From Akkermansiaceae bacterium (lineage in GTDB: Bacteria > Verrucomicrobiota > Verrucomicrobiia > Verrucomicrobiales > Akkermansiaceae), in NCBI GenBank assembly GCA_013001695.1, contig JABDMC010000066.1, forward strand, positions 1-48,151: a stretch of DNA of 48,151 nucleotides, written 5' to 3'. The notes beneath the pieces were generated by a model. The model had not been told where the DNA came from. It searched no databases and saw only the letters and a program-made list of their open reading frames with translations. Made by a program: the position numbers and the translations under genes. Positions 5,866 through 43,798 of this stretch are shown one piece after another; within the stretch, counting starts at the first letter, position 1; every line of letters starts with the position of its first letter.

Positions 5866-8055
5866 CTATTTTTCGACGGCTGCGCGGGTCACCGGAAGCG
5901 GGCAGCCGCGGACTTCGACGCCATCTCGGGTGTATCGCACGGTCGTCCATTGATCCCCGATGGGAAGTCGAATCTCCATCCACTCCCAGCACCTTGGAAC
6001 CGCGGGCCGGATCGTGAAGTTCTGATCGGGAAGGGAATAGTCCAGCCCACCGAAACCCTCCAGGTAGAGCAGAATCTTCCCGGCGTTGAAGTTCGAATAC
6101 TGGTCGCCAAACAGGGTGACATCCCGTTCGTAGGCCTCGGGCGCGACCGGGACCTCCCATTCATCGTGCCAATTGTATCCGGCGAGGTGATTCAGCGTCA
6201 GCTCGGTCGCCTCGTCCACCAGGCCCTGGCGAAACATGCCGTCGAGGGTGAAATAGGCGGTGTCCGGAGTGTAGCCGAATGAGTGGTCAACCTCCGTGGC
6301 AAAGGCCTTCATCGACTGCCTGGACATGGCGAGGGGAAAGAACTCGCCGAAAAAGCCCTTCTCCCGGTCGAGGGCCCACGTCCGGACCATGGCCGCGGCG
6401 AATTCCCTCGGAAAGTGCGGCGAGCGCATCGCCCAGAATCCGTTGGTCGTCAGCATGCCATTGCCGGGAGCGGCGAAGTACTTGGGAACGCCGTTCATCT
6501 CCCAGCGTTGATCGAGCATGAGTCGAATATGCCCGGGATCGCGGGATATGATCTCCTGCCAGTGCTTGACGTCGGCCTCCTTGCCGAGGACGCGCGCCAT
6601 CTTCTCGAGCGTCTCGGCAAGCTCGAACTCGTTCATCGAAAAGTTGGCGAGGCGCTTTCGGTAAAGCTTCTCGAAGTGGTCTTCGTAGCACGCTTTCAGG
6701 AATTCGACGTCGCCGGTGTGCTCGTAGATCTGCCAGGCCCCGAGGACGTGTTCGGAAGTCTCGGCGCCGTACGCTCCGCTGTGCCAGGCGACCCCCTTGT
6801 TGTCGGAGATCATGCGGATGCCGTTGGGCAGTTCGCGATATCGATCGTTCCTGGTGAGGTGCTTCCACGTCAGCACATTCCCGTAGGCGTAGCGGGGTTT
6901 GTCGGCCGTCCACGCACCAACCTTGATCTGGAAGGCGGCGTCGTGGCGATGCATGCCGAGGAAATTGTTCACCGCGGTCTGGGTGTGGTTCTCCCTCTCC
7001 CATCCATCGCCCACCTCGATGTAGTACATGAGATAGAGCGCCCAAAGGTAGTAGTAGATATCGACGAACTTCCTGTCGGGGCAGCGGAACCAGGGGATCT
7101 CCTCGTTGAGCTGCCGGTTCATCTCGTCCGTCTTCGCGGCGAGCATCGGGCCGTGGTTCCGGATGATGTCCTCGACCGCCTCGAGGGCGGCCGGCTCCTC
7201 ATCGTGCATGGCCCACGCAACGGCGGTTCCCTCGCGGTCACAGGGGACCGAGAAGGTGTAATGCTGGACGCCGTTCTCGTCCCGCCTCGTCTCGAGGGTT
7301 TCCGCGATGTGGCGGGAGGCGCTCAGGGCCGTGGTCATCCCGCTGTACACCGACGGGCCGACGCGTTCGGGGCCGTCCGGGTCGGGCCGGGACTTCATGG
7401 TGCCGCCTTCGAGAATCAGGAGCGCGCGCCGGGAGGCGTCGAGCTTGATCGCAGCCCGGGAAGAGACGCTGTTCCTCGTGTGGAAGCTGTGCCCGGAAAA
7501 CTGCAGCGTCACCGGCTTCGAGGCGGTGATGATGGACGCGGCAGCATCGTTGGCGGCTATGAACTTCTCCTCCCGGATGGTAACGCCGGCGACCTCGTAC
7601 ACGCAGATCATCTTGTCCGGCCGCCAACGCATGCTTTTCGGCCTGGGGGTCGCGTGCGTTTTCCCGTCGACGATGACGCTGCCGTAGAGAACCCGGGTGT
7701 CCTTGTAGAATTCCCAACTGAGGTAGTCGTTGCCTCGCCCCGTGTTCTCCCTGCCGCTGATCTCGCTCTCGACCAGGGCCGCCCCGCGGGCCCGGAGGTC
7801 GTGATGGAAGGGATGGGTCAGGCCGATGGTCTCGTCCTCGACGGGCTTCCAGCTGGCATGGTAACCGCCGACGTAATAGGTCACGTTCCCGGCGAGGAAT
7901 CCGTGCTTCCTCCCCTGAATCTCGTGCTCCAGCCGTTGGCAGTAGTCCGTGAACCCGGGCTTCTCGCCGGCGATCAGGTTTCCAATTCCAAGGCAGCACA
8001 GGAACATCGTCACGGCGCGCAGCCATCCCCCGGTGTGTCGATTCTCCGCGCTCAT
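5866..8055 (-). CDS. Exported (alpha/alpha)6-barrel glycosidase-like protein (MGH1/GH63-like)
   Basis: Predicted exported protein of 729 residues. ATG at 8055 is chosen because it gives an N-terminus with a hydrophobic stretch (AVTMFLCCLGIGNLIAG). The N-terminal third is beta-rich; the C-terminal two thirds look like an (alpha/alpha)6 toroid, with WALYLMYYIEVGDGW, GMHRHDAAFQIKVGAW, VAWHSGAYGAETSEHVLGAW, LDQRWEMNGVPKYFA and an ending of the type YSLPDQNFTIRPAVP found in MGH1-like and GH63/GH65-like proteins. That layout suggests cleavage of an alpha-linked glycan. Catalytic acids cannot be assigned with confidence. A cupin gene lies 95 bp upstream on the same strand and may be co-transcribed. 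The family assignment is at the fold level only. Confidence 0.7.
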   Translation of the reverse strand: MSAENRHTGGWLRAVTMFLCCLGIGNLIAGEKPGFTDYCQRLEHEIQGRKHGFLAGNVTYYVGGYHASWKPVEDETIGLTHPFHHDLRARGAALVESEISGRENTGRGNDYLSWEFYKDTRVLYGSVIVDGKTHATPRPKSMRWRPDKMICVYEVAGVTIREEKFIAANDAAASIITASKPVTLQFSGHSFHTRNSVSSRAAIKLDASRRALLILEGGTMKSRPDPDGPERVGPSVYSGMTTALSASRHIAETLETRRDENGVQHYTFSVPCDREGTAVAWAMHDEEPAALEAVEDIIRNHGPMLAAKTDEMNRQLNEEIPWFRCPDRKFVDIYYYLWALYLMYYIEVGDGWERENHTQTAVNNFLGMHRHDAAFQIKVGAWTADKPRYAYGNVLTWKHLTRNDRYRELPNGIRMISDNKGVAWHSGAYGAETSEHVLGAWQIYEHTGDVEFLKACYEDHFEKLYRKRLANFSMNEFELAETLEKMARVLGKEADVKHWQEIISRDPGHIRLMLDQRWEMNGVPKYFAAPGNGMLTTNGFWAMRSPHFPREFAAAMVRTWALDREKGFFGEFFPLAMSRQSMKAFATEVDHSFGYTPDTAYFTLDGMFRQGLVDEATELTLNHLAGYNWHDEWEVPVAPEAYERDVTLFGDQYSNFNAGKILLYLEGFGGLDYSLPDQNFTIRPAVPRCWEWMEIRLPIGDQWTTVRYTRDGVEVRGCPLPVTRAAVEK

Positions 8056-8150
8056 GTCTGACCGGGCATGATGTGGGCGCTGCCTGCAACCTGGCTGCCG
8101 GTCCGCCACCTTGTTCGCTGTCGCGGCGATCGGGCGGTCTCGTGTGACGA

Positions 8151-8537
8151 TCAGCCGGTCAACTGGGCCTTGAGGTGATCCACCACGGCGCAGTGTTCCG
8201 CCTGCGGGCTGAAGAGGATGATCTCGGCATCGGCGCCGACCCGGACCGAATGCCCGGGAGGCCAGTAAAACAGTTCTCCCCCCACGATGGTTTCTTCGGT
8301 TCCGTCCGAATAGGAAACGGTCACCTCACCTTCGATCATGTATCCCCAATGCGGCGATTGGCAGAGATCCGATTCGAGGCCCTTGAGCAGGGGGGCGATG
8401 TCGGTGCCCTCCTTCAGCGAGAAATACTCGCCTGCGATGTCGCCGTAGCCACTGGCGTTGCCAAAATTGAATGCTTGGCGGGCGATGGCGCCCGGGACAT
8501 CAAGCCTTACGGGAACGTCTTCCTTTGCGATTTTCAT
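8151..8537 (-). CDS. Small cupin-domain protein
   Basis: 128 residues with no signal peptide, so probably cytoplasmic. A single cupin barrel is visible: SPHWGYMIEGEVTVSYSDG forms the first motif, with one His and one Glu in ligand positions, and GELFYWPPGHSVR the second, with its His. Proteins of this kind bind a metal and a small ligand; the substrate is not apparent. It is followed on the same strand by the glycosidase at 5866-8055. The 296 bp upstream (8538-8833) separate it from the divergent dehydrogenase gene. Confidence 0.8.
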   Translation of the reverse strand: MKIAKEDVPVRLDVPGAIARQAFNFGNASGYGDIAGEYFSLKEGTDIAPLLKGLESDLCQSPHWGYMIEGEVTVSYSDGTEETIVGGELFYWPPGHSVRVGADAEIILFSPQAEHCAVVDHLKAQLTG

Positions 8538-8833
8538 GATGGTGCGTCTACCGTTCTTTCGTTGGTGTTGCCTTTGCCGAACAGTAATCTCCCCGGACCG
8601 TAGCGGCCCGGTCGCAAGAAGGCAAGGGAACCGCGAAGAGTGCTGATGGCCGGCGCCTTCGGCCGGAAAACGGGGTGATCCAGAGATCTCGAACCGGGAC
8701 CGCGGGGCCCTGCGGTCCGGTCACGGGACGGCATGGGGTGCATGGCGCTTTGGAAACGCCGCCTGAATCACGGTCCCGGGGACGTTTGGAGATTGTATCC
8801 CGGACGCCGGGAGACTTAGCTGGCAACCGGCTG
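8538..8833. other. Divergent intergenic region between cupin and PVC dehydrogenase genes
   Basis: 296 bp with no convincing gene. It must hold the promoters of both flanking genes, but no clean -35/-10 pair stands out. Three small hairpins are visible: GGCCGG/CCGGCC around 8648-8663, GGACCGC/GCGGTCC around 8697-8718, and GGCG/CGCC around 8748-8761. Confidence 0.4.
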
Positions 8834-11800
8834 ATGATTACCCCTACCGGCATGATGCGTGGCGCCTGGTTCGTGGTCCTCCTGTGGTCGACCGGGTCGG
8901 CCGGCCTCGCCGCCCCGCCCAACACCGAGACCACCCCCGGATCCCCGATGCCGGCCGCGGAGGCCGCGGCCACCATGCAGGTCCCGGACGGCTTCAAGGT
9001 CACCGTCTTTGCCGCCGAGCCGGACGTGCAGAACCCCATCGCCTGCTCGTGGGACAGCCGGGGCCGCCTCTGGATCGCGGAGAACTACACCTACGAGCGC
9101 CGCCGCGGCGTCGATCTCCCCGGCGACCTCCACGACCGGGTGCTGATCTTCGAGGACCGGGACAACGACGACGTCCACGACCAGCGCACCGTCTTCGCGG
9201 ACGGCCTCGATACGCTGACCAGCCTCGAGTGGTCGCCCGGCGGCCTCTACCTGATGTGCCCGCCGAACCTGCTCTTCATTCCCGACGCGGACCGCGACGA
9301 CCAGCCGGACGGGCCCGCCGAAGTCGTCCTCGACGGGTTCACCGAACCGTCCGCCAACAACCACAACTTCGCCAACGGCCTGCGCTGGGGACCGGACGGC
9401 TGGCTCTACGGCCGCTGCGGCGCATCCGCCCCGGGGGAAGTCGGCAGGCCGGGAACTCCCGCCGCGGACCGCATTCCCCTGCGCGGCACCATCTGGCGCT
9501 ACCACCCGCGCACCCGCGTCTTCGAGGCCCTCTCGTGCGGGTGCACCAACCCGTGGGGCCACGACTGGGACCGCCACGGCCAGCTTTTCTTCATCAACAC
9601 CGTGAACGGCCACTTCTGGCACCACATCACGGGCAACCACATGAAGCGCTCGCACACTATCGATCCGAACCCCCACAGCTACCAGCTCATGGATCACCAC
9701 GCCGACCACTGGCACTTCGACACGACCGGCGGCTGGGGGAAGTCGCGCCACGGAGCCGCCAACGAGTTCGGCGGGGGCCACGCCCACATCGGCATGATCA
9801 TTTACCAGGGCGACAACTGGCCGGAGGAATACCGGCACAATGTCTACACCGTCAACATGCACGGGAAGCGCATCAACCGCGAGATCCTCGAGCGCCGCGG
9901 CTCGGGGTACGTGGCGAAGCACGCCCCCGACTTTCTCATCGCGAAGGACCCCTTCTTCCGCGCCCTCGAGCTGACCACCGGCCCCGACGGCGGGGTCTTC
10001 CTCCTCGACTGGTCCGACACCGGCGAATGCCACGAGAACACGGGCGTGCACCGCACCAGCGGGCGCATCTACAAGATCACGCACTCCCGGGTCCGCAAGC
10101 CGGGCGGCGGGATCGCCGACAACCGCGTTTTATACCCCTATTGTTCCTCGCCCAACGCCTGGCATTACCGGATGAAGGTCCTGGAGATCCGCGATGATAT
10201 CCATCGCCTCGAGGACGCCGGGCCCGCGGGAGCACGCGATCTGCAGACCCTGCGGACGCGCATTCGCAGGCCATTCGAGTCCATCATGGTCGCGGGTGAC
10301 CCGGCCGTCCGGCTGCGTAAACTCTGGGCCCTCCACCAGTTCGGGGCCCTCGAACCGGAGGAACTTCCCGCGCTTCTCGGGGACCCCCGGGAGCATGTCC
10401 GGGTCTGGGCGATCCGCCTCCTCACCGATCACTTCCCGCTCGACACCGTCGAGGGAAAACGCCGCGAGATGGCGCCGGAAATTGTCTCCGCGATCCGACT
10501 CGCCTCCGAGTTTTCGCGAATGGCGGAAGACGACGGGAGCGCCCTCGTGCGCCTCACCCTCGCCTCGACCATGCAACGCCTCCCCCTGCGCCTGCGCACC
10601 GGGGTGGCGAAAGGCCTCGTGTCGCACCCCGGGGACGCCGGCGATCACAACCTTCCCCTCATGATCTGGTATGGCCTCGCTCCGGTCGCGGAGAAGTTTC
10701 CCGATGATCTCGTGGAAGTCGCGGCAGGGTGCGCCCTTCCGCTCGTCCGCAAGTTCATCGCGCGCCGCCTCGCGGAGGACATCGAGACAAACCCGAAGCC
10801 CATCGACGCGCTCCTCGCCATCGCCGCCGAGAAGCCGGCCGCCTTCCAGCGCGACATCCTCGCCGGCCTCACCGAAGCGTTCCGCGGGTGGCAGAAGGCC
10901 CCCGCCCCGGCCTCGTGGCCGAAATTGTCGGAGGCCGCCGCCAAATCGCCCGATCCCCACATCCGACAACCGGCCCGTGATCTGGCGGTCCTCTTCGGCG
11001 ACGGACGGGCCCTCGACGAGGTGAAGCGCATCGCCCTCGACGGCCGGGAACCGGTCGAAACCCGGAAGGCCGCCCTGCGATCGCTCATCAAGGCGCGGCA
11101 TCCGGAACTGAAGGAGATCTGCATGAAACTCGTGGAGACCCGCTTCCTCAACGCCGTCGCGGCGAAGGGCCTCACGCTCTTCGACGATCCCGCCGCCGCC
11201 GGGAAACTCGCCGGCAGCTTCAGGCGCTTCCACCACTCCGAGTACCACCTCGCCATCGAGGCCCTCGTCTCCCGCCCCGTGTTTGCCGCGGCCCTTCTCG
11301 ATCAGATCGCGGCCGGCAAGATCCCGCGTTCCCGCCTCACCGCCTTCCACGCCCGGCAGATCCGGTCGTTCCATGATGACGCCCTCACCGCGAAGCTTTC
11401 CGCGGTGTGGGGCGACCTGCGCGACACGCCCTCCGACAAGAAGAGGCTCATCGAGGTGCTCAAGCAGCAGCTCGATCTTCGGGCGCTCGCCGCCGCCGAT
11501 CTCGGGGAGGGCCGCAAGGTCTATAACCAGGTCTGCGCGAGCTGCCACAAGCTCCATGGCGAAGGGAAATCGATCGGCCCCGACCTCACCGGCTCGGGCC
11601 GCTCCAACCTCGACTACCTCCTCGGGAACATCATCGACCCCGGCGCGGAAGTCTCCGCCGACTACCGCATGACGGTCGTCACGTTGAAGGACGGGCGCAC
11701 CCTGAACGGCTTCATCCGCTCGCAGAACAAGAAGACCCTCACCCTCCAGACGATGACCGATGCGCAGACCCTCGCGAAGGAGCACATCGCCGGGCTCGAG

Positions 11801-33145: not shown

Positions 33146-33282
33146 GGGACCCGGGGCGTTTCGGCGAAGGGAGCGCCCGGCCCGTCCCGCCCGGCCGGCT
33201 CGTGAAACCGCTCAAGCCGTCACGCCAAACTCCCCCGCCTTCCCTGACAGCTTGGCGTGAAATCCCGAGTAGTCCCCCCGTC

Positions 33283-34773
33283 ATGCGCCTTCTCCTCATT
33301 CTCGCGCTCGCCGCCTGCGGCCCGTTCTCCGCCGCCGCCGAGCGCCAACCCAACGTCATCCTTTTCGTCACCGATGACCAGAGCCCCATCGCGGGATGCT
33401 ACGGCAACCGGGTCATCCGGACCCCGCATCTCGACGCCCTCGCCGCGGAAGGAACGCGCTTCACCCACGCCTTCGCCACCACCGCTTCCTGTTCGGCAAG
33501 CCGCTCGGTCATCCTCTCCGGCCTGCACAACCACCGCAACGGCCAGTACGGCCACACCCACGCCTTCCACAAGTTCGAGTCGTTCGAATCCGTCGCGGCG
33601 GTGAGCCTGCCGCTCCAGATGGCGCAGGCCGGCTACCGCACCGCTTCCATCGGGAAGTATCACGTCGCCCCGGAACGCGTCTTCCACTTCGACCACTACC
33701 TCCCGGGGAACGGCCGCAACGCCCGCGAGATGGCCGGCAACTGCAAGGCGCTGATCGGGGAAGAATCGGAGCAGCCGTTCTTCATCTACTTCTGCACCAG
33801 CGATCCCCATCGCGGCGGCGGAACGGACAAGAACTTCCCCGGGAAGCACAAGCCCGACCTCTTCGGCAACAAGCCCGACAAGGGCGCCCACAAGGGGATC
33901 AAGGAGGTCATCTACTCACCCGCCGATGTCATCGTCCCGGAGTTCCTCCCCGACACCCCCGAGTGTCGCGCCGAGGTCGCGCACTATTACCAGTCGTGCT
34001 CCCGCATCGACCAGGGGCTCGGTCACCTCGTGCAGATCCTCAAGGACGCCGGGAAGTGGGACAACACCGTCCTCATTTTCACCGCCGACCACGGGATGGC
34101 GTTTCCCGGCGGCAAGACCACCGTCTACGAAGCCGGCCTGCGCGTCCCCTTCGTCGTCCGGCACCCGCAGGCCGCGAAGAAGGGCGTGGTCAACAATGCC
34201 ATGATCTCCCACGTCGACATCACCCCCTCGATCCTCGATCTCGCCGGAGCGTTTGATGCGCCACGGCGCGCCCCGCGGAAACTCGTCGGGGTCCCGAAGG
34301 CGCCCCGCGGCGAGAACTACGGCAAGGTCCCCAAGGCCTACCACGGCCGCTCGTGGATCCCGATCCTCTCCGAGAGCAACCCGGAGGGCTGGGACTCCAT
34401 CGACGCCTCCCACACCTTCCACGAGATCCAGATGTACTACCCGATGCGCGTCGTCCGCGACCGCAATTACAAGCTCATCTGGAACGTCGCCTACCGGCAG
34501 CCGTATCCCTTCGCCTCCGACCTCTGGGCCGCGGCCACCTGGCAGGCGCAATGGGACCAGGGCCCCGAGGCCAAGTACGGCGGGCGCAGCGTCGACTCCT
34601 ACATCAACCGCCCGCAGTTCGAGTTCTTCGACATCTCGTCGGACCCCTCCGAATCCCGCAACCTCGCCGCCGACCCGAAATACGCCGGCCTCCTCGAGAC
34701 CTACAAGGCCAAGGTCAAGGAGATGCAGAAACGCACCGGCGACCCGTGGATCATGAAGTGGTCCTACGAGTAG
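33283..34773 (+). CDS. S1 sulfatase, N-sulfoglucosamine sulfohydrolase-like, possible lipoprotein
   Basis: 496 residues. ATG 33283 opens a short signal with a lipobox (MRLLLILALAACGPF: LAAC, so Cys12 could be lipid-modified). Core: Asp-Asp in VTDDQSPIAGCYG, motif C70-S-A-S-R-SVILSG (Ala replaces the usual Pro), SIGKYHVAPERVFHFDHYL, FCTSDPHRGGG and FTADHGMAFPGGKTTVYEAG. The DDQSP and CSASR pair and the GKYH stretch are the pattern of the heparan sulfamidase/S1_8 group, so the preferred substrate may be an N-sulfated or glucosamine-type sugar; that is inference from motif likeness. It is convergent with the giant gene at 34887. Confidence 0.9.
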   Translation: MRLLLILALAACGPFSAAAERQPNVILFVTDDQSPIAGCYGNRVIRTPHLDALAAEGTRFTHAFATTASCSASRSVILSGLHNHRNGQYGHTHAFHKFESFESVAAVSLPLQMAQAGYRTASIGKYHVAPERVFHFDHYLPGNGRNAREMAGNCKALIGEESEQPFFIYFCTSDPHRGGGTDKNFPGKHKPDLFGNKPDKGAHKGIKEVIYSPADVIVPEFLPDTPECRAEVAHYYQSCSRIDQGLGHLVQILKDAGKWDNTVLIFTADHGMAFPGGKTTVYEAGLRVPFVVRHPQAAKKGVVNNAMISHVDITPSILDLAGAFDAPRRAPRKLVGVPKAPRGENYGKVPKAYHGRSWIPILSESNPEGWDSIDASHTFHEIQMYYPMRVVRDRNYKLIWNVAYRQPYPFASDLWAAATWQAQWDQGPEAKYGGRSVDSYINRPQFEFFDISSDPSESRNLAADPKYAGLLETYKAKVKEMQKRTGDPWIMKWSYE

Positions 34774-34886: not shown

Positions 34887-37800
34887 TCACGGTGAGATGC
34901 CGGCCGCGACCCGCGTCACGCGGACCCGCAGGAAACTCTTGATGGCCCCCGAGATCGGCGTCGTCTCGCAAACCACCACCGTCTCGGTGCCGTCGCCGTT
35001 GGGCGTCGCGGTCAGTTCCTCGATCTCACCGGCGTCCGCCAGGGCCCAGCCGGCAAGGTCGGAGCCGCGCTCGATTCCGTAGAGGAGGTCGAGGTTGTCG
35101 ATCCGGCGGCGGTAGATGATCCCGAAGTGCCGTTCCCCGGTGCCGACCTTCTCCACCACGGTCGGCTTGACCCGCGCCTCGCGGCTGTACTCCTTCGGCT
35201 TTCCGCCGAGGGCGTACTCGAGGAGGGTCACGAGGGCATCCCGGTCGATGTCGGCCGTCAGCCCGCTGACCGCCGGGTCGGCCAGCTCCGCCGCGGTGAA
35301 CTCCCCGAACCGCCAGCCGTCGAGGGGCGTGTCCTCGATCGTGACGATGGCCGACCCCGAGGCGCCGATGGTGTAGGCCGCGTCCGGCGTGATGGTGAGG
35401 GTCGCCGACTCGGGGCCTTCCGCGTCGTTGTCGAGGAAGGGCGTGAGGTCAACCGGCGCCGAGAGCGCCCCCGCCGGAATGGTGGCGCTGCCCGCAAGGG
35501 CGAGGTAGTCGAGGCCCTCGGTGGCGGTCCCGCTCATGGCGTAGAGGACCGTCACGCTGCTCGATACGTCGCCGGTGCGGGTCAGGTAAAACTGTCCCGA
35601 GATCGACCCCAGCTCGCGGGCGACGGGCACCCAGGCCGTGACCTCCACCGCCTGTCCGGGGAAGCTGTCGGCGTCGATGGGATCGGTCCCGGCGGCGATC
35701 TCGGTGGCATTGTCGGCCCCGTCGCCGTCGAAGTCCGCCGTCCCGAGGACGTCGTCGATCTTGGTGATGGCATCGAGCGGGTCGGCATCGACGATGCGCA
35801 GCTCCTCGAAGTCGTCGAGGAGGTCGGCATCGCGGTCGAGCGACGAGAGGCCGCCGGCTTCGGTCGTCGAGAACTTGCGCAGCTCGACCGGGCCGTCATT
35901 GTCGAAGAGACTGAAAATTTCGGCGGCGTGCGCCCCGGCGACCGGCACCGCCACCAGCCCGTCGTAGATTCCCGGCGAATCGGTGGTGACCTCGGCCGGA
36001 CCGGCGAGGAGGACCCCGGCGGCATCGACGTAGGCGAAGCGGATGTTGGTGCGGTCCGCGCCGGTGGTCCACGTCACGAAGTAGTGGGTGGCGATCCCGT
36101 CATCCACTGCGGCGAGGTCGAGGGAGCCCGGCGACGAATCCGCGATGATTCCCGGGAGGGCCGGCGGCGCGGGAACCGGCATCCACGGCGCGGCGCCCGT
36201 CTTAGAGAACATCCCGATCACCCCGTCGGGGCTTTCGTAAACCGCCACGAAGCTGTCGTCCGGGCCGGAGGTGAGGGCGCAGTGCTCCTGCGCGAGGGCG
36301 CCGGTGTCGAGACCCACCGTGGGCGTCACGGTGGTCCCGTCCCATCCCAGCGCCACGAATCCCCCGATGTCGGTGAAGGCCACGACCTGGGCGGGCTCGC
36401 TGCCGCCGAATCCCGGCCCCGCGGCATCCCACCCCTGGACGACGACGTCATCGAAGAGCGTCGCGGGCGCACTCCACGCCCCCGCCGCAAAGAGCGCCCC
36501 CTCGAGATCCACCACCGTCGATCCCGGCCCGCGCTCGCTCTCGAGCCACAGCAGCCCGAGGTCCCCGCCCGGCATGGCCAGCAGGCGGAAGTCAAAGACG
36601 GTCCCGGGCACCGCCGTCAACGTGGCGGGCACCGTCCAGCTCACCCCGTCCGCGGAGGTGGCATACTTGATGGTGGTGGCCGGCGCGAAGTCCCCGAGCG
36701 CCCCGGGGCCGATCTCGGACCAGACCAGCATCCATCCGCCGCCCGCCAGCGGGTGCAGGCCCACCCCGATGATGGCGGGGGCGCCGGCAACCTCCACCGG
36801 GGCACCCCACGTGGCGCCCCCGTCGAGGGCGACCTTCAGCTTCATGCCCCCGCCGCCCGGGTCCGGGTCGAGGAATGCGAGGGCCGCGCCGGATGCCGCG
36901 TATCGGGCCAGCGGGAAGTGATCCGCAACGAGGTGCGGTTCGAGCCCGCACCAGCTGGCGGCGGGCGCCCCGGCGAGGGTGAGGGTGCTCTCCGAGACGT
37001 CCATCTCGACGAGGAAGAAGAGCGCCTCGGTGTTGAAGGGCCGGTCGATCGGGAACGTCGCCAGCGTCCACTCCTTACCGACCCGGAAGATCCAGGCCTT
37101 CAGGAAGAGCTCCGCGCTGACGTCCACCGCCCCGCGCACGCGCTTGATCATGGGCGTGTCCCCGAAGCCGTTGACCTCGAGCTCCAGGGCGGGAAACCCG
37201 AGGACGGGATTCTTCGACCCCACCGTCTCGGCCTTGATCGAACCGCCAAGGCTGCCGCCCGCGATCTCCATCCCGAGGCTCGTCTCGAGCCCGAGCAGCA
37301 ACATCGCTTCGAGCTTGTCCTCGTCGACGATCGGGACGAACTCCTCGCCGAGGAAGAAGTTCCGCTCGCCATTCGGGTTCGGGTCCCGGTACTTCGCCGG
37401 CACGTCGCCCGGCACGGCGGCCCTTTCGCGAAACCGCGTGATGAGGGTCCGCTCGAACGCCGCCCCGCCGCGCGGCTCGATCGCAAGGGTGAATTTCAGG
37501 AGCTCGCTCTCGCGGATCGCCGCCAGCACCGCCGCAAACTGCGGGGCGGCCGCAAGATTCCGGTAGAGGGCCCGCAGGAGGTCGACCTCGATGCGCAGGC
37601 CGACCCCGCCGCCCGCCGTCAGGCTGAGCTGCGTCTCGAGCGGCGTGATCTCCTGTCCGGCGGTGTACGGGACGCCGAGGGACGAGAGCGCCTTCACCTT
37701 GGCGCTCGCATTCAGGCGCAGGCTCGGGTTGATCACGGTGGGCTTTCTCGGTTTGACCCCCGGGAGGTTCGGCTCGTAGGCGTCCTTGTCGGCGAGGTCG

Positions 37801-40800
37801 CCGATGGTGATGCCCACCCCGGCGCCGCCGCCGATCCGGAAGACCGGCGCGCCCGCGACGACCTTCACCGGTTCGTTCTCGGCGTTGTAGTAAAGCTTGG
37901 CGCCGTCGAGGCCGATCTCGAGGACGCCGCGGATGCGCAGCCCCGCGAACCCCGATCCCATCCCGAGGATCCCCGTCCCGGGGGTTTCCTCGCCGAGCGA
38001 GAACTTCGTCGTGAGCTTGTAGTCGTAGTCGAGCGTCTTGTCGCCGGTGACCTTGATGTCGGCCTCCAGTTCCGGTTCAAACTCGAAGATCCCGGCCGGG
38101 AGGGAGGTCTCGAGGGCCACCTTCACGTCGCCCGCGCCTTCCTGGGCGGCCTTCACGGTCCCGAGGAGATCCGCCACCGATGCCAGCCACCGCGGGAGCT
38201 TCATCCCGTAGAGCTCGAAGAAGAGCGGATCGGTGGGGGTGCGCTTCCACTGGTGGTACTCCACCGCGCCACTGCGCGTTTCCACGATGATCCACGGCTG
38301 GAAGAGCCCCGGCGGCAGGGACGCCAGGTCGATCGTCCCCGCACCGGTCGACTTGAGCCGCCCGCCGTCGATCGTGAAGGGCCGGTTCGGGGCGAAGGTG
38401 AGGAAGGCATTCGGATGCTCCGGCTCGGGGTCACCGCCACCCGCGGGCACCACGAACTTGCCGAACTCGTTCAGGAAATCCCGCATCTCGATGTGGAAGA
38501 GCGGGTTCGGGTCGCCCATGGCGTCGAACTTCGCCGGCAGCGTGATGGGGGTGGCGTCGACGTCCCCCGGGTTCCCGTCGAAGGCGCGCGGATCGATGAT
38601 CCAGATGTTGCGGACCGGGTCGGCGACCGCCAGCGGCGCCTCGGGCCGGAGCCCCCCGGTGGACGAATCGAAGTTCCCCAGCCCGTAGGTGTGGGTCTCG
38701 GCGGTGTCGGCCCGCACCTCCCAGGCCATCTCGACCGCCGGGTCGTTGCCCGTCACGCCGCCGTCCTTGCCGGTGCGCACCCCCACCAGGAAGACCCCGC
38801 GACGGTCGAAGATGTCCGGCTTGTTGGTGATGAGCGGCGCCGGAAGCGGCTTCAGGGTGATGGTGCCCGCATCGAAATCGAGGTCCGCCCCGTCTTCCGG
38901 CGTCGCCGGGGTGGAGGCGATGCGCACCAGCTTGCGCTCGTACCCGGGCACCGCGATGTCCACGAAGAGGACCTCGCTGCGCTTGATGGCCGCCGGCCTC
39001 GTGTCGAACTTCCCGTCCGCCGCGGTGGGAAGCAGCTCCCGCAGGAAGTTCCCGTGGCGATCGCGAATCGTGACCCGCGCCCCCTCGACCGGCTTCGTGA
39101 TGCTCGCCGTCGTGTCGGTGTCGGGCATCTCCGCCATCACCTCGCCCCTCACCTGCGAGCCGCGAATGAAGAGGAGGGTCGTCTCCACCGTGGGCGTCTC
39201 GAGCTGCGCGTTCACATCCAGTTCGAAGGTCGGGGAACTCGCATCGCACGAGACGGGTTTCCACTTCGCGGAGTCCGTCCCGCCGGTGATCTCGTCCGGG
39301 AGGTAGGAGGCGGTCCGGGCCCCGTCCATGAAGGGCAGGGGCTCGGAAACCACGGTGGCATCCGACATGAGGGTCGTGATGCCCGCCAGGGCGTGGGCCC
39401 GGTTGTCGGCGTTCAAGGCCCGCATCGTGAAGCTGTAGGTCGGTGTCGGGGCATTCGCCACCACCGTCGGCCCCCCCGCCCCGGGGTGCTCTTCCTCGAG
39501 CTTGAAGTCGATCGTGATGGTGGCCGGGTCGGTCGGTCCCACCGAGAAGGTCCGTTCATACCAGTGCGCGCCGTCCTTGGCCCAGATGGTCCACGGCCCG
39601 TCGGTCATCGAGAACCCGGCGTAGCCCCGGAAGAGCCGCGTCCCGAGCCCCGGGTGCGTGAAGAAGTTCGGCATGGTGCGCATGCTGCGGACCACCGGGT
39701 CGCCCATGGGATCCTTCCCGATGAAGCGGATCAGCAGCGAGTGATCGCCCTTGTAGTCGCCCGTGAAGGGATCCGTCAGGCCGAAGGCGGCGTCGACCTG
39801 GCCCCAGTTGTTTTCCATCGGAATGATGTTGTCTCCCGAGCCGCCTTCCCCGGGGAATCCGTAGTCGGGCAGGTGAACAAGCTCGAAGATCCCGCTCGGA
39901 AGGGCGAAGTGCGGATGCTCGAGGGTCACCTTGTGCGTCCCGGCGGGCGCCTTGATGAGGAACGTCCCGGTGGTATCCGGAATCCGGGAACCGCCGGCGG
40001 TGATGCTGATCCCCTGCTCGAGCGGAAACTCGACCTCCCCGGGCGGCGCCGCGTCATTCTCGTCGAACTTCACCTTCCCGAGGCCGGGGGCCGCAAAGTG
40101 GCTGAAGTCGGCGGTCAGGGCGTCGACCCCGGTGCCGGTGCGGGCCACCACCCGGTCGAGCGCCGGGCTGGTCAGCGCCATCGGGGCGGTGTCGGTCACG
40201 ATCGCCCCGTCGAGGAAGTAGAGTTGCTTGCGCACGAAGAGGTCGATCTCGAGATCGTCGCCGGAGCTGATCGGGATGCCGCGGCTCCCGAACGGGTGCA
40301 GCGGGATGCCGCCCGAGGCGGCCGGATCCACCGCGTACGGCCACCCGAACTCGAAGATCTCGCCGGTGACGGTATTGACCGACCGGTAGTTGCTGCCGAA
40401 GTACTCGGTGAGCCCGGGGATCTTCACCCCGTAGAAGCCCGGCAAGACCGTCAGGGTGAAGACGCCGTCCTTGCCGGCGCTGGCGCCCACGATCTCGAGC
40501 CCGGGCGGCAGGATCGCCGCCAGGGCGCTCTGCGTGAACTCGATGCCCGGCTGCTCGGCGGCCTCGTAGGCCGGCCCCTTCCAGCGGTCCTGCACGCTGG
40601 GAACCTCGTTCGGCGTCCCCGGCACCTCGCTCCGGTGGTCGGCCTTGAAGAAGCGTCCCCGGATCACGGCCGGCACCACCTCCGCCTCGAGGACATGCGT
40701 GTTGAAGCCCGTCGCCACCTCCACGAAATCGTCCCCCCGGAAGTGGATGTCGATCGTCGCCATCCCGTCCTCGAGCGCCGGGACCGGCGGCGTCGTGATC

Positions 40801-42032
40801 GGCTGGTCGATGCTCACCCGGTAACGGCCGGGGAGGATCCCCATGAATTCGATCCGCGCCCCGCCGAACGGCAGCCCGGGTTCCGGCGGAAGGATCATGG
40901 TCGGCTCGATGCGCTCGATGCCGGTGGTGGCGGTGCCTTCCAGCCCCCCGAGTCCCTCCAGCTTCACGAAGAGCCCCGTCATGACGTCCGGCGTCGTGTA
41001 GGGACTCGTCACGATGACCTCCAGCACGGTGATCGGCGCGAGGTCGAGGACGTGCGGGTGGGTGGCCGGCAGGGTGCCGGCCCCGGCGGGAACCATCAGC
41101 GTCTGCGGTCCGCCGTAGCCGAGCTTCTTGCCATCCACGATGATCTTGGTGGGCGGCAGGCCGGTGAAGGTGACCATCCCGGCGTCGTCGGTGCGTCCCA
41201 CCAGCGGCGCGGTGGTCGGGATCGCGACGTCGGTCAGGGCCTGCGCCATCGGATCAAATCCCGGCGGCGGCGCAAAGTCGGGCGTGGTGGGCGTCAACTC
41301 CACCCACACGTTGGCGAGCGGTGCCGCCGTGCCGAGTTCCGGCTTGGCGGGATCCGGACCGGTCACCGCGACCGTCACGGTCTGCTTGACGGCGAGAAGC
41401 TGCGCGATGACGGTGTGCGGCTTCTCGAGAGTCACCTTGGCGGGGCGGTCGAGCGATCCGTAGAAGACCGCCGGCGTGCCGTCGGCCGCGTCATTGAACC
41501 GGAAGGTGTAGCGTCCCTTCGGCTGGCTGCGGAGCTTGACGTTTCCATCGGCGTCGGTGACCTTCACGATCGTCTCCTCGAGGACCGCCGGGCCGGCCAG
41601 GCTGAACCGCTGGACGCGCACCGGAACCGACGGGAGCGGGACCATGGTGCTCGTGTCGCGCACCACGATGAACAGGTCGATCGTCGAACTCCCCGGGTCG
41701 ACGGGGACCAGCGCGATGTCTTCCGAGGCCAGTTCGTCCGTGGCGTAGGTCCGGGCCTCGGAGAAGGGCGTATATCCCGGGTGGGAGGCGGCGAGGGTGT
41801 AGTCCCCCGGCGGGATGGCGTCGAACTCGTATCGCCCGAAAACATCGGTGGTGGTGGCGATCGCCGGTCCCCCGCCGTCCGGGGTGACCGAGACGGCGGC
41901 CTCCACCAGGGAGGCGCCGGTGAGAAAGTCCGTGACGCGTCCGCGGAGCTCGGCGTCGCCGGCGGTCGCGAGGGTGGGAAGCATCCCCGCCATCACGGCG
42001 AGAAGGAGCAAAGACACAGCGTGCATGTTCAT
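34887..42032 (-). CDS. Giant 2381-residue modular secreted protein
   Basis: Largest gene in the window. ATG 42032 opens signal peptide MNMHAVSLLLLAVMAGMLPT; a TTG 27 bp earlier is less likely. Residues about 28-105 match a carboxypeptidase-regulatory-like domain (ELRGRVTDFLTGASLVEAAV), followed by further beta-sandwich repeats of the same style. About 1300-1650 is a beta-rich stretch I do not recognise. About 1735-1800 carries Asp-box-like motifs (DGGATWGAPVEV; TSADGVSWTVP), suggesting a sialidase-type propeller. About 2060-2122 has type-3 calcium repeats (DRDADLLDDFEE; DFDGDGADNATEI). About 2139-2232 is a Calx-beta domain. The end (2244-2381) is a secreted C-terminal module. Probably a surface adhesin or glycan binder. 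It may be co-transcribed with the gene at 42335, 302 bp upstream. Confidence 0.88.
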   Translation of the reverse strand: MNMHAVSLLLLAVMAGMLPTLATAGDAELRGRVTDFLTGASLVEAAVSVTPDGGGPAIATTTDVFGRYEFDAIPPGDYTLAASHPGYTPFSEARTYATDELASEDIALVPVDPGSSTIDLFIVVRDTSTMVPLPSVPVRVQRFSLAGPAVLEETIVKVTDADGNVKLRSQPKGRYTFRFNDAADGTPAVFYGSLDRPAKVTLEKPHTVIAQLLAVKQTVTVAVTGPDPAKPELGTAAPLANVWVELTPTTPDFAPPPGFDPMAQALTDVAIPTTAPLVGRTDDAGMVTFTGLPPTKIIVDGKKLGYGGPQTLMVPAGAGTLPATHPHVLDLAPITVLEVIVTSPYTTPDVMTGLFVKLEGLGGLEGTATTGIERIEPTMILPPEPGLPFGGARIEFMGILPGRYRVSIDQPITTPPVPALEDGMATIDIHFRGDDFVEVATGFNTHVLEAEVVPAVIRGRFFKADHRSEVPGTPNEVPSVQDRWKGPAYEAAEQPGIEFTQSALAAILPPGLEIVGASAGKDGVFTLTVLPGFYGVKIPGLTEYFGSNYRSVNTVTGEIFEFGWPYAVDPAASGGIPLHPFGSRGIPISSGDDLEIDLFVRKQLYFLDGAIVTDTAPMALTSPALDRVVARTGTGVDALTADFSHFAAPGLGKVKFDENDAAPPGEVEFPLEQGISITAGGSRIPDTTGTFLIKAPAGTHKVTLEHPHFALPSGIFELVHLPDYGFPGEGGSGDNIIPMENNWGQVDAAFGLTDPFTGDYKGDHSLLIRFIGKDPMGDPVVRSMRTMPNFFTHPGLGTRLFRGYAGFSMTDGPWTIWAKDGAHWYERTFSVGPTDPATITIDFKLEEEHPGAGGPTVVANAPTPTYSFTMRALNADNRAHALAGITTLMSDATVVSEPLPFMDGARTASYLPDEITGGTDSAKWKPVSCDASSPTFELDVNAQLETPTVETTLLFIRGSQVRGEVMAEMPDTDTTASITKPVEGARVTIRDRHGNFLRELLPTAADGKFDTRPAAIKRSEVLFVDIAVPGYERKLVRIASTPATPEDGADLDFDAGTITLKPLPAPLITNKPDIFDRRGVFLVGVRTGKDGGVTGNDPAVEMAWEVRADTAETHTYGLGNFDSSTGGLRPEAPLAVADPVRNIWIIDPRAFDGNPGDVDATPITLPAKFDAMGDPNPLFHIEMRDFLNEFGKFVVPAGGGDPEPEHPNAFLTFAPNRPFTIDGGRLKSTGAGTIDLASLPPGLFQPWIIVETRSGAVEYHQWKRTPTDPLFFELYGMKLPRWLASVADLLGTVKAAQEGAGDVKVALETSLPAGIFEFEPELEADIKVTGDKTLDYDYKLTTKFSLGEETPGTGILGMGSGFAGLRIRGVLEIGLDGAKLYYNAENEPVKVVAGAPVFRIGGGAGVGITIGDLADKDAYEPNLPGVKPRKPTVINPSLRLNASAKVKALSSLGVPYTAGQEITPLETQLSLTAGGGVGLRIEVDLLRALYRNLAAAPQFAAVLAAIRESELLKFTLAIEPRGGAAFERTLITRFRERAAVPGDVPAKYRDPNPNGERNFFLGEEFVPIVDEDKLEAMLLLGLETSLGMEIAGGSLGGSIKAETVGSKNPVLGFPALELEVNGFGDTPMIKRVRGAVDVSAELFLKAWIFRVGKEWTLATFPIDRPFNTEALFFLVEMDVSESTLTLAGAPAASWCGLEPHLVADHFPLARYAASGAALAFLDPDPGGGGMKLKVALDGGATWGAPVEVAGAPAIIGVGLHPLAGGGWMLVWSEIGPGALGDFAPATTIKYATSADGVSWTVPATLTAVPGTVFDFRLLAMPGGDLGLLWLESERGPGSTVVDLEGALFAAGAWSAPATLFDDVVVQGWDAAGPGFGGSEPAQVVAFTDIGGFVALGWDGTTVTPTVGLDTGALAQEHCALTSGPDDSFVAVYESPDGVIGMFSKTGAAPWMPVPAPPALPGIIADSSPGSLDLAAVDDGIATHYFVTWTTGADRTNIRFAYVDAAGVLLAGPAEVTTDSPGIYDGLVAVPVAGAHAAEIFSLFDNDGPVELRKFSTTEAGGLSSLDRDADLLDDFEELRIVDADPLDAITKIDDVLGTADFDGDGADNATEIAAGTDPIDADSFPGQAVEVTAWVPVARELGSISGQFYLTRTGDVSSSVTVLYAMSGTATEGLDYLALAGSATIPAGALSAPVDLTPFLDNDAEGPESATLTITPDAAYTIGASGSAIVTIEDTPLDGWRFGEFTAAELADPAVSGLTADIDRDALVTLLEYALGGKPKEYSREARVKPTVVEKVGTGERHFGIIYRRRIDNLDLLYGIERGSDLAGWALADAGEIEELTATPNGDGTETVVVCETTPISGAIKSFLRVRVTRVAAGISP

Positions 42033-42334
42033 GGTTCTCGTGGTTATCGGTGCGTCCAAGGATCTGTTGGCCTTTCCAACCGGACACTCCCCTCATGCTT
42101 ACCAAAAAAGACCAATGTGGCGCAAGATTGGGGCGCGCCGCGGGCCGCCGCACCGCCACGGGATGCCGTCATGGAAGCGGTCCAAAACACCGGAGCACCG
42201 GGGCCTGCCCGCCGGAAGCTAAGGAAATGCGAAACGGGGCCCGCTCGGCGCCGCGGAACCGCCCGCTCGTTCCCGCTGCGCATATCCCATCATGCCGCGG
42301 TCGCGGTGACGGGGGGCATTTCCCCGCCCGCGCT
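42033..42334. other. Intergenic region upstream of the giant gene
   Basis: 302 bp between two (-) genes. It holds GTTGG/CCAAC near 42069-42083 and a GGGG/CCCC hairpin near 42311-42325, just past the stop of the PQQ-like gene. No clean promoter or other feature was recognised. Confidence 0.4.
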
Positions 42335-43666
42335 TCACCGCGCGCTCGTTCCGGCGGCAAGCTCCACCCGCACGATCTCCTGGTCGCTGCGGGCGAAGCA
42401 CGACTTCATCGCAAAGGCCGGTTGCGACCAGATGATCTTCCGACCGTAGGCTTCATTCGTCGGTTCGAGGATCCGCCGCCGTCCCAGTTCCCGGTAGCCC
42501 TCTTCCGACAATTCCGCGAGGATCAGGTCGCCGGTCTCGCTGAAGATCCAGAATTGCCCGTTGGCCTCGTGGTGGACCAGCATCGCGGTGCCGTGGCGGG
42601 CCCGCGGCGGGGCATCCGGCGCCAGGCACGGCCGGGTGGTCGCCCAGAGAATCCTCCCGTCGTCCATCGAGACGGCCCGCAACTCGCTCGTCTCGGCATC
42701 GACCCCGTAAACGACGCCGTCCATGAGGTGCGGCGTGCTGTTGAGGGTGTTGACGGCGTTCTTCGGCGTTCCCCGCCAGAGGACCTTCGCGTCCGGCCGC
42801 GCGTCGTTCAGCTCGATCATGGCGGCCACCTTCCCCGGGCCGCTCACGTAGAGCCGGCTTCCGAGTTTCCGGGGCATGGTGTTGGAGATGGCGAAGCGCG
42901 GCTTCAGGCTCACCGCCCAGTATTGCCTGCCGGTTGCGGGGTTCAGCGACGCCAGCGCCGCCGGGTACCAGATCAGGAGTTGTTCGACCCCGCCGTGCTC
43001 GATGAGGGTCGGCGGACAGTAGCCCTGCGCATCGGCATCCAGCGCCCGCCAGCGTTCCTCGCCGCTCTTCTTGTCGAAGGCCACCGCAATGCTCCCCTCG
43101 CCGCCGACGATGTGATACACAAGATCCCCGTGCACGAGCGGGTGCGCCGCGAACCCCCAGCGCGGCGGTTCGGTATGATACTCGCTCACGAAGTCGTGCT
43201 TCCACCGCAACTCCCCGGTGGCGGCATCGAGCGCGCGGCAGTTTCCCATCGCCCCCACGAAGTGCACCAGGCCGTCCTGCACCGTCGGGGTCACCCGCGG
43301 ACCGCTCGGGTAGGCGATGGTGTAGGTCACCGGGTAATCGTGCGTCCAGATTTCGCGGCCCGTGCCGGCATCGAGGCAGCGGATCCGCTCCCGCCCCTTG
43401 AGGACCTTCCCGCGCTGGTTGCCGCCCTGGAACTCGCCCTCCGTGACGACGAAATCCGGCACGTAGACCCTGCCATCCGCCACCGCCGGGCCGGCATACC
43501 CCCACGACACCGGCGCCCGCCAGCGAATCTGCGGCTTCTCCTTCCCCCAGTCGGTCCGGATCCCCTCTTCGCGCCACACCGCGTCGCGCCGCTCGCCCAG
43601 CCACTGCGGCCAGTCGTCGCCGCGGCACACCGCGGCGAGAACCACCAGGAAGAGAACGGTTCTCAT
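42335..43666 (-). CDS. Exported PQQ-like beta-propeller protein
   Basis: 443 residues. ATG 43666 opens signal peptide MRTVLFLVVLAAVCRGDDW. The rest is a run of PQQ-like propeller repeats: DDWPQWLGERRDAVW, PAVADGRVYVPDF, RIRCLDAGTGREIWTHDYP, CRALDAATGELRWKHDF, IAVAFDKKSGEERWRALD, LASLNPATGRQYWAV, LRAVSMDDGRILWATTRP. The repeats have the A-x-D-x-x-x-G-x-x-x-W look but lack the haem or calcium site of true PQQ dehydrogenases. It is likely a surface or periplasmic binding/scaffold protein of the outer-membrane-assembly or PVC propeller type. Function open. Confidence 0.85.
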   Translation of the reverse strand: MRTVLFLVVLAAVCRGDDWPQWLGERRDAVWREEGIRTDWGKEKPQIRWRAPVSWGYAGPAVADGRVYVPDFVVTEGEFQGGNQRGKVLKGRERIRCLDAGTGREIWTHDYPVTYTIAYPSGPRVTPTVQDGLVHFVGAMGNCRALDAATGELRWKHDFVSEYHTEPPRWGFAAHPLVHGDLVYHIVGGEGSIAVAFDKKSGEERWRALDADAQGYCPPTLIEHGGVEQLLIWYPAALASLNPATGRQYWAVSLKPRFAISNTMPRKLGSRLYVSGPGKVAAMIELNDARPDAKVLWRGTPKNAVNTLNSTPHLMDGVVYGVDAETSELRAVSMDDGRILWATTRPCLAPDAPPRARHGTAMLVHHEANGQFWIFSETGDLILAELSEEGYRELGRRRILEPTNEAYGRKIIWSQPAFAMKSCFARSDQEIVRVELAAGTSAR

Positions 43667-43798
43667 GGTTCCCGACCTTTGCCAGGCCGGGTTAAAAGTC
43701 AATCTTGTCCTCGTATCCTCCCCCCCGCCGGCCCCATCTTTTCCCTGTGATGACAGGTCGTCGCAGTCCGCACCCCGCCCGCGCCCGGCGTCCGCACC

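Follow-up and report, generated by a model that had tools for sequence, protein, structure and literature searches.

The proteins closest to the one described here are each comparable with a part of it. Sialidases have a conserved arginine triad, and in the inverse autotransporters (intimin/invasin) the membrane barrel comes first and is followed by the binding head. CylK is reported to be an enzyme in which a Ca-binding beta-roll at the N-terminus precedes the propeller (PMC8916777). We analyzed a 48,151-nucleotide stretch of an Akkermansiaceae genome (contig JABDMC010000066.1, the window) which encodes a giant protein having likenesses to these proteins, to the PLL-type lectins and, in its center, to outer-membrane beta-barrels. 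Judged from sequence, this protein belongs to a real and coherent family, the center of which is absent from the libraries searched.

The gene and its product

The features of the gene and its product, all on the minus strand, are as follows.

34887..42032 (-), whole coding sequence, 2381 aa (open frame; relatives align over its full length)
41961..42032 (-), signal-peptide-like start, residues 1-24 (by eye; hydrophobic starts also seen by eye in relatives)
41754..41948 (-), CarboxypepD_reg domain, residues 29-93 (Pfam PF13620, E 3.8e-20)
38847..41954 (-), carboxypeptidase-regulatory-like beta-sandwich region, residues 27-1062 (further copies in relatives, hhalign of halves, Pfam)
38247..38849 (-), conserved block without a family, residues 1062-1262 (no Pfam match)
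36963..38240 (-), center, residues 1265-1690, a family-specific domain of predicted long amphipathic beta-strands (sequence scans, alternation, models)
35850..36932 (-), beta-propeller of sialidase/PLL-lectin type, residues about 1701-2061 (AlphaFold2, Foldseek, VIA, weak BNR_2)
35655..35837 (-), TSP3-like Asp-rich loop, probably calcium-binding, residues 2066-2126 (TSP3_bac E 0.12; passes in L050)
35328..35591 (-), Calx-beta-like domain, residues 2148-2235 (below cut-off; above it in L053)
34890..35327 (-), C-terminal module, residues 2236-2381 (recurs in other ORFs of the genome, mostly at their ends)

The initial annotation had described a secreted protein of 2381 residues, and the open frame was confirmed. 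The ORF list and the translation agree on an ATG at 42032, a stop at 34887-34889 and 2381 codons on the minus strand, and residues 1-24 (MNMHAVSLLLLAVMAGMLPTLATA) have the look of a signal peptide when judged by eye. The third-position GC content (GC3) of 0.92 together with relatives in the same frame argues that this is a real coding gene. The plus strand of the same DNA carries an ORF of 2440 aa (35127-42449), which has no support of the GC3 or relatives kind and was read as an antisense shadow, probably a by-product of the high GC3.

Distribution of the family

We aligned 15 full or nearly full-length members (the window protein and 14 relatives), which have a median pairwise identity of 24% up to residue 2060. 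All 15 share a single architecture with the same domain order. The C-terminus of L063 is cut by a contig end, and two further copies were excluded from the alignment, the broken-looking frame of genome G650 (L060) and a contig-cut third copy of genome G169. Scans of family libraries with the center used 12 members (without L059, L063 and L064), and scans of entire proteins against Pfam included the window protein plus 12 of the 14 relatives (all but L054 and L063).

Used as a single query, the center detected a single relative among 57 other genomes and five relatives in a draw of the phylum (6 of 387 genomes, with its own genome). A profile of the center matched 6 of 387 genomes in the phylum draw, 6 of 239 in the order draw and 5 of 384 in the class draw; these draws overlap and each count includes its own genome. 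In total, fourteen genomes (its own included) and one record, L064, carry the family, which is by these searches patchily spread in Verrucomicrobiota, Lentisphaerae included. No relative was found in 14 genomes of the same genus (70-96% complete), either with the single sequence or with the center profile, whereas a genome from another family of the same order (G586, locus L053) has a copy 45% identical to the window protein over its whole length. This combination points to transfer or repeated loss. No relatives were found on plasmids by single-sequence search or on viral contigs by pattern search, and no description of the family was seen among the titles and abstract openings listed in a literature search.

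Genome G169 has two full copies, which share 58% identity and group as sisters in the tree; the third, cut by a contig end, was seen there as well (L036, L054 and L082 are the loci of this genome). Nearly full-length matches to the center profile all lie in ORFs of at least 1922 aa, the exception being G650, where the copy (L060) seems to be split between two minus-strand frames (5913-8741, 8777-10234). As a stand-alone protein the center was never found in the genomes searched.

The N-terminal sandwiches

The match of PF13620 to residues 29-93 scores 72.5 bits against a curated cut-off of 32.3, which places this stretch in the CarboxypepD_reg family. The domain is present in the window protein and in all 12 relatives scanned, the best-matching stretch being N-terminal in 10 of the 12 and lying at 993-1050 in L035 and 898-961 in L064. 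Further copies were sought with a model built from the first sandwich of the family itself, so that its first match is one by construction. In relatives this model gave additional matches at E<1, mostly weak, at about residues 120-220, 217-315, 468-567, 625-735 and 892-1057, and a copy beyond residue 890 was present in 10 of 14 relatives. It detected no sandwich beyond the first in the window protein. Upon comparison of residues 27-470 with residues 470-1062 by hhalign, the two halves aligned at 92% probability. A Kustd1514-type anammox S-layer glycoprotein model (NCBIfam NF052345) also matched residues 23-162 weakly (E 6.6e-7). However, the score of 27.1 bits compares with a cut-off of 1400 and the match is confined to the CarboxypepD_reg part, so the protein does not belong to the Kustd1514 group.

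The conserved block that follows (residues 1062-1262) had no Pfam match in the window protein or the relatives scanned, and its block means in the structure model were 32-69. Thus, the stretch without a known family is wider than the 1300-1650 of the initial annotation.

The center matches no family in the libraries scanned and is probably built of long amphipathic strands

In every aligned member the center occupies an equivalent position, with a length of about 400 residues, and it is absent from the three family libraries scanned. The initial annotation had it match no known fold, a claim that a clear match to a known family would have overturned. We looked for such a match in Pfam, NCBIfam, PHROGs and the PDB sequences and found none: 0 of 12 members matched Pfam (E<=1), 0 of 12 matched NCBIfam or PHROGs (E<=0.1) and a 7-member profile had 0 matches among PDB sequences (E<=10). 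The idea that the center diverged from a copy of the propeller or of the N-terminal sandwiches was rejected, hhalign giving 0.1% for each. The columns common to at least 12 of the 15 members are Gly, Pro, Leu, Ile, Tyr, Trp, Thr and Asn, none of them charged, a pattern that reads as structural; the most conserved charged columns are E1346 (11/15) and K1653 (10/15).

Hydrophobic residues alternate with a period of two in the center at 1.44 times the shuffled value (15 members), the strongest alternation of the regions tested (1.16, 1.14, 0.93 and 1.00 in other regions of the same proteins), and 25% of its windows exceed the alternation threshold of 3.0 versus 9% upon shuffling. Five E. coli barrels gave 1.06-1.23 and seven soluble proteins 0.91-1.19. 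As the soluble beta-protein ElfG reached 1.19, this measure cannot separate barrels from soluble beta-proteins. Long amphipathic strands in the center are nonetheless well supported by the sequences, independently of any model. The hydrophobic face is rich in Leu, Ala, Val and Ile and the polar face in Gly, Glu, Asp, Lys, Ser and Thr. Aromatics make up 12% of the hydrophobic face versus 18% in the barrels, and charged residues make up 36% of the polar face (31% in barrels and 35% in the N-terminal sandwiches), a composition that does not decide between a membrane and a soluble setting. Alignments of the center profile by hhalign were negligible both with the five E. coli barrels, used as single sequences (<=0.7%), and with eight soluble controls (<=0.2%). 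A sixth barrel control, OmpA, was dropped as the sequence retrieved for it cut the gene and was read out of frame, leaving the five.

Structure prediction, which the initial annotation had proposed as a check, was run on the center with an alignment of only 6 sequences and gave about 12 mostly long antiparallel strands, but at low confidence (mean pLDDT 52) and with no significant Foldseek match. In the AlphaFold2 model of the window protein (pTM 0.44) every residue of 1277-1512 had a pLDDT below 50, with ten-residue means of 21-47. The model of the L062 center, the best of five, had a mean pLDDT of 51.9, a pTM of 0.47 and block means of 45-78 over its residues 141-360. Eleven of its 12 antiparallel strands are 10-23 residues long and the other has 5; helices stand ahead of the first strand and between the sixth and the seventh. 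Neither Foldseek nor the viral structure library gave a match at E<=0.001 with this low-confidence model. Among the best 50 Foldseek rows 45 had titles of outer-membrane or organelle beta-barrels, the best at E 5.4e-3. The best 50 VIA rows were all outer-membrane or organelle barrel proteins (Z 8.7-11.8, rmsd 4.4-10.3), counting 4q35, titled merely 'membrane protein', which we take to be a barrel protein. CymA was the top row (Z 11.8, rmsd 7.1, 223 residues aligned), where the tool gives 7-8 as the typical best Z for models without a clear match. VIA re-aligns the candidates of Foldseek and is thus dependent on it, and absence from its lists excludes no family. Taken with the alternation, the center is likely a barrel-like meander of long amphipathic strands.

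Whether such a meander would sit in a membrane or in solution can be argued from both sides. It is possible, though less likely than not, that the center is a mid-chain barrel of some 12 strands that spans the outer membrane and anchors the protein there in a manner resembling autotransporters, though not by descent from them, with large parts on both sides. The barrel proteins that fill the best rows of Foldseek and VIA, the Z of 11.8 and the strong alternation are consistent with it. However, long strands may draw a poor model toward barrels by default, alternation is not specific to barrels, and neither the absence of a Foldseek match at E<=0.001, nor the negligible hhalign values, nor the face composition favors a membrane barrel; the center also never stands alone as a protein of its own. 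We consider it possible, if doubtful, that the center is instead a soluble domain of long amphipathic sheets around a hydrophobic interior, such as a trough that holds lipids or other hydrophobes, or a closed soluble barrel. The division into a Leu/Ala/Val/Ile face and a polar face would suit such a domain, and microsomal triglyceride transfer protein appeared twice among the best 50 Foldseek rows (E 0.041 and 0.16), but these matches are weak (prob 0.18 and 0.12), are fewer than those to barrels and have no counterpart in a sequence match to a lipid-protein family in Pfam. The fullest version of the membrane proposal, a new transmembrane barrel family in mid-chain with a sandwich stalk on its N-side and a lectin-like propeller plus exchangeable tails on its C-side, all in one chain of more than 2000 residues, seems to us unlikely.

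The likeness of the center to outer-membrane beta-barrels (autotransporter beta-domains, CymA, FhuA, LptD, BamA) lies in its predicted long amphipathic antiparallel strands, a feature of barrels though not exclusive to them, and these proteins are neighbors of a low-confidence model. The center differs from them in its mid-chain position and in that no sequence kinship was found with Pfam or with hhalign against the five E. coli barrels. If the center is a barrel, the order of barrel and then binding head would recall intimin and invasin. However, about 1240 residues precede the candidate barrel here, whereas the barrel is N-terminal in intimin and invasin, and no Pfam match to the barrel of that family was found in the center or elsewhere in the window protein, which sets it apart from type Ve. 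A membrane barrel in mid-chain would give a display design unlike that of either the classical (barrel last) or the inverse (barrel first) autotransporters. To our knowledge little is known of outer-membrane secretion in Verrucomicrobiota, and such a barrel would be a new way of displaying giant proteins in this phylum. A soluble center would still be a new domain, always found together with a lectin-type propeller.

The propeller follows the center

The initial annotation had taken Asp-box-like repeats as a hint of a sialidase-type propeller in the center. The propeller exists, but it follows the center (residues about 1701-2061) rather than lying in it, and the repeats did not stand. The window protein has a single copy of the eight-residue Asp-box pattern (1735-1742), as does each of 3 of the 14 relatives. 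Two other Asp-box patterns had hits at 1736, at 1823 and, among the sandwiches, at 281-289, and none of the patterns used occurs within 1300-1650. In the AlphaFold2 model 30 of 36 ten-residue blocks of the propeller have a pLDDT of 74-90 and the others 56-69. Foldseek matched it to a putative neuraminidase (3h6j, E 2.7e-9), several sialidases (E 1.6e-8 to 1.6e-7) and PLL lectins (E about 1e-8); sialidases, PLL-type lectins, CylK and PL25-like lyases recur in the Foldseek and VIA matches. In VIA, CylK, a rhamnosyl-glucuronate lyase, BP39L, PLL lectins, BT3686-like hydrolases (GH145-like) and PL25 lyases scored Z 25.9-29.2. Since enzymes are among the closest folds and unrelated propellers (Elp2 and ribosomal RACK1-like) still reach Z 22-24, the fold alone gives no verdict on function.

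Kinship with sialidases is faint in sequence: BNR_2 matches L064 at E 0.0011, below the cut-off, and the NanC sialidase matches the profile at E 0.036. The likeness to sialidases and BNR-type proteins is that of the fold (3h6j) and of this weak BNR_2 match, whereas the family has single Asp-boxes (4 of 15 members, one each) and no conserved arginine triad was found in residues 1700-2061 of the 15 members, aligned at about 24% identity. Arg is conserved in at least 9 of 15 members at just two columns, 1737 (12/15; Asp in the window protein) and 2052 (12/15, at the propeller edge), and His at none. Tryptophans of the propeller are shared across the family. In fold the propeller resembles the PLL-type lectins of Photorhabdus and BP39L/CV39L, which are sugar-binding propellers with seven blades; VIA scores these at Z 26.3-28.6, with an rmsd of 2.7-3.3 for some 300 aligned residues. 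They differ in that identity is 10-13% and the propeller here, with a putative sugar-binding role, is one domain of a giant protein. CylK had the top VIA Z on the propeller (29.2; rows within 1 are tied), but identity is 8%, and its other domain is a parallel beta-roll whereas the center model is an antiparallel long-strand meander. Binding seems a likelier role than catalysis. An acidic loop after a Trp, with columns 1775 (Asp in 9/15) and 1778 (Asp in 12/15; about 36697-36710 of the window), may bind a metal or a ligand; the window protein has Gly and Ala at these two columns.

Neighboring sulfatases

The gene is at the border of a region rich in sulfatases, of which seven matches occur at 675-34773 of the window, some with F5/8 type C, 3-keto-disaccharide hydrolase or EF-hand matches. 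The host assembly (5.13 Mb, 399 contigs) has 109 in all, the genome mean being about one per 47 kb. The 3' neighbor is a sulfatase gene on the plus strand (33202-34773), convergent and 113 bases away, and the 5' neighbor, on the same strand as the giant gene, encodes a PQQ-type propeller protein (42335-43702). We compared the neighbors of 15 genes by blastp (1e-5; ORFs of at least 70 aa; flanks of unequal length, those of L051 being 1.7 and 0.1 kb). No conserved operon was found among the 15 loci. Neighbor families were common to two pairs of loci: the sulfatases of the window have a counterpart near L065, and L053 and L059 share one pair of other ORFs. The L065 sulfatase was the only case of a window neighbor family in the loci of the 14 relatives.

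The substrate capture for adjacent sulfatases put forward in the initial annotation was not borne out and is improbable. The density of sulfatases (seven in 48 kb) and the lectin-like propeller are in its favor. Against it, the adjoining sulfatase gene is convergent rather than co-directional, the neighborhood is not conserved, and closeness to sulfatases is weak evidence because this genome alone has 109 sulfatase matches. A link with sulfatase-rich genomes was likewise rejected, as 13 other genomes with the family have between 4 and 92 matches (inexact in the richest, where only 87 candidates were scored). Still more improbable is a propeller acting as a glycoside hydrolase or polysaccharide lyase on a sulfated polysaccharide together with these sulfatases. 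The PL25 ulvan lyase, the BT3686-like hydrolases and the rhamnosyl-glucuronate lyase do score Z 25.9-28.9 and seven sulfatase matches lie in the window, but PLL lectins fit equally well, conservation at 9 or more of 15 members extends to two Arg columns and no His, and neither the neighborhood nor the sulfatase counts point to such a partnership.

L062, the member from Lentisphaerae, has a long ORF with RHS/YD repeats immediately upstream of its giant gene (L062:1-7374, partly seen in L033:3-4820). An RHS gene as part of the system was rejected since a motif scan of flanks of unequal length found it at 1 of 15 loci.

Proposed role of the protein

The sequences or confident models give at least one N-terminal sandwich, the family-specific center, a propeller of sialidase/PLL-lectin fold and differing C-termini. 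Our preferred reading, for which we see about an even chance, is that the protein belongs to a patchy family in Verrucomicrobiota whose giant secreted members are non-catalytic binding proteins, probably displayed at the surface, with a sandwich stalk, a glycan- or ligand-binding propeller head and a long-strand, barrel-like center. The beta-sandwiches would act as the stalk and the propeller as the head binding a glycan or other ligand, and the center would be a barrel-like structural block of long amphipathic strands joining or anchoring the two; we infer surface display, ligand binding and the stalk from the architecture. The non-catalytic part of this reading rests on the uncharged columns conserved in at least 12 of 15 members of the center and on the propeller having no His and two Arg columns at 9 or more of 15. 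The fairly conserved polar columns (E1346 in 11, K1653 in 10 and R1737, R2052 and D1778 each in 12 of 15) could still belong to a family-specific active site. The poor models of the center, the enzymes among the closest propeller folds (CylK, PL25 lyase, GH145-like hydrolases and rhamnosyl-glucuronate lyase) and the detection of a single sandwich in the window protein count against the preferred reading.

The C-terminal region

Known modules had been claimed for both ends of the protein. The N-terminal CarboxypepD_reg domain is clear, whereas the C-terminal Calx-beta and TSP3_bac matches are below cut-off in the window protein. TSP3_bac matches residues 2100-2121 at E 0.12 and is above cut-off in L050; Asp columns of this loop are common to 9 to 14 of 15 members, and it probably binds calcium. 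Calx-beta matches residues 2148-2235 at E 0.0015 and is above cut-off in the closest relative, L053. Beyond the loop the members differ. Tails of the window-protein type (2130-2381) are present, 32-44% identical, in L035, L050, L053 and L059, the L032 tail has MBG/YDG repeats and L034, L036, L051, L052 and L054 have other tails as judged by eye. By these comparisons the C-terminus is exchangeable between members.

The tail of the window protein had 15 matches in its own genome at E<=0.01, itself included. Ten of those loci were recovered by tblastn, and in 8 (itself included) the match ends no more than 38 residues from the stop; the exceptions were L080, where it ends 372 residues ahead of the stop, and L076, where no stop was seen. 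The recurrent module may be a sorting or anchoring signal. It comprises about 140 residues and was observed in this genome toward the end of several ORFs (34890-35327 and L068-L074).
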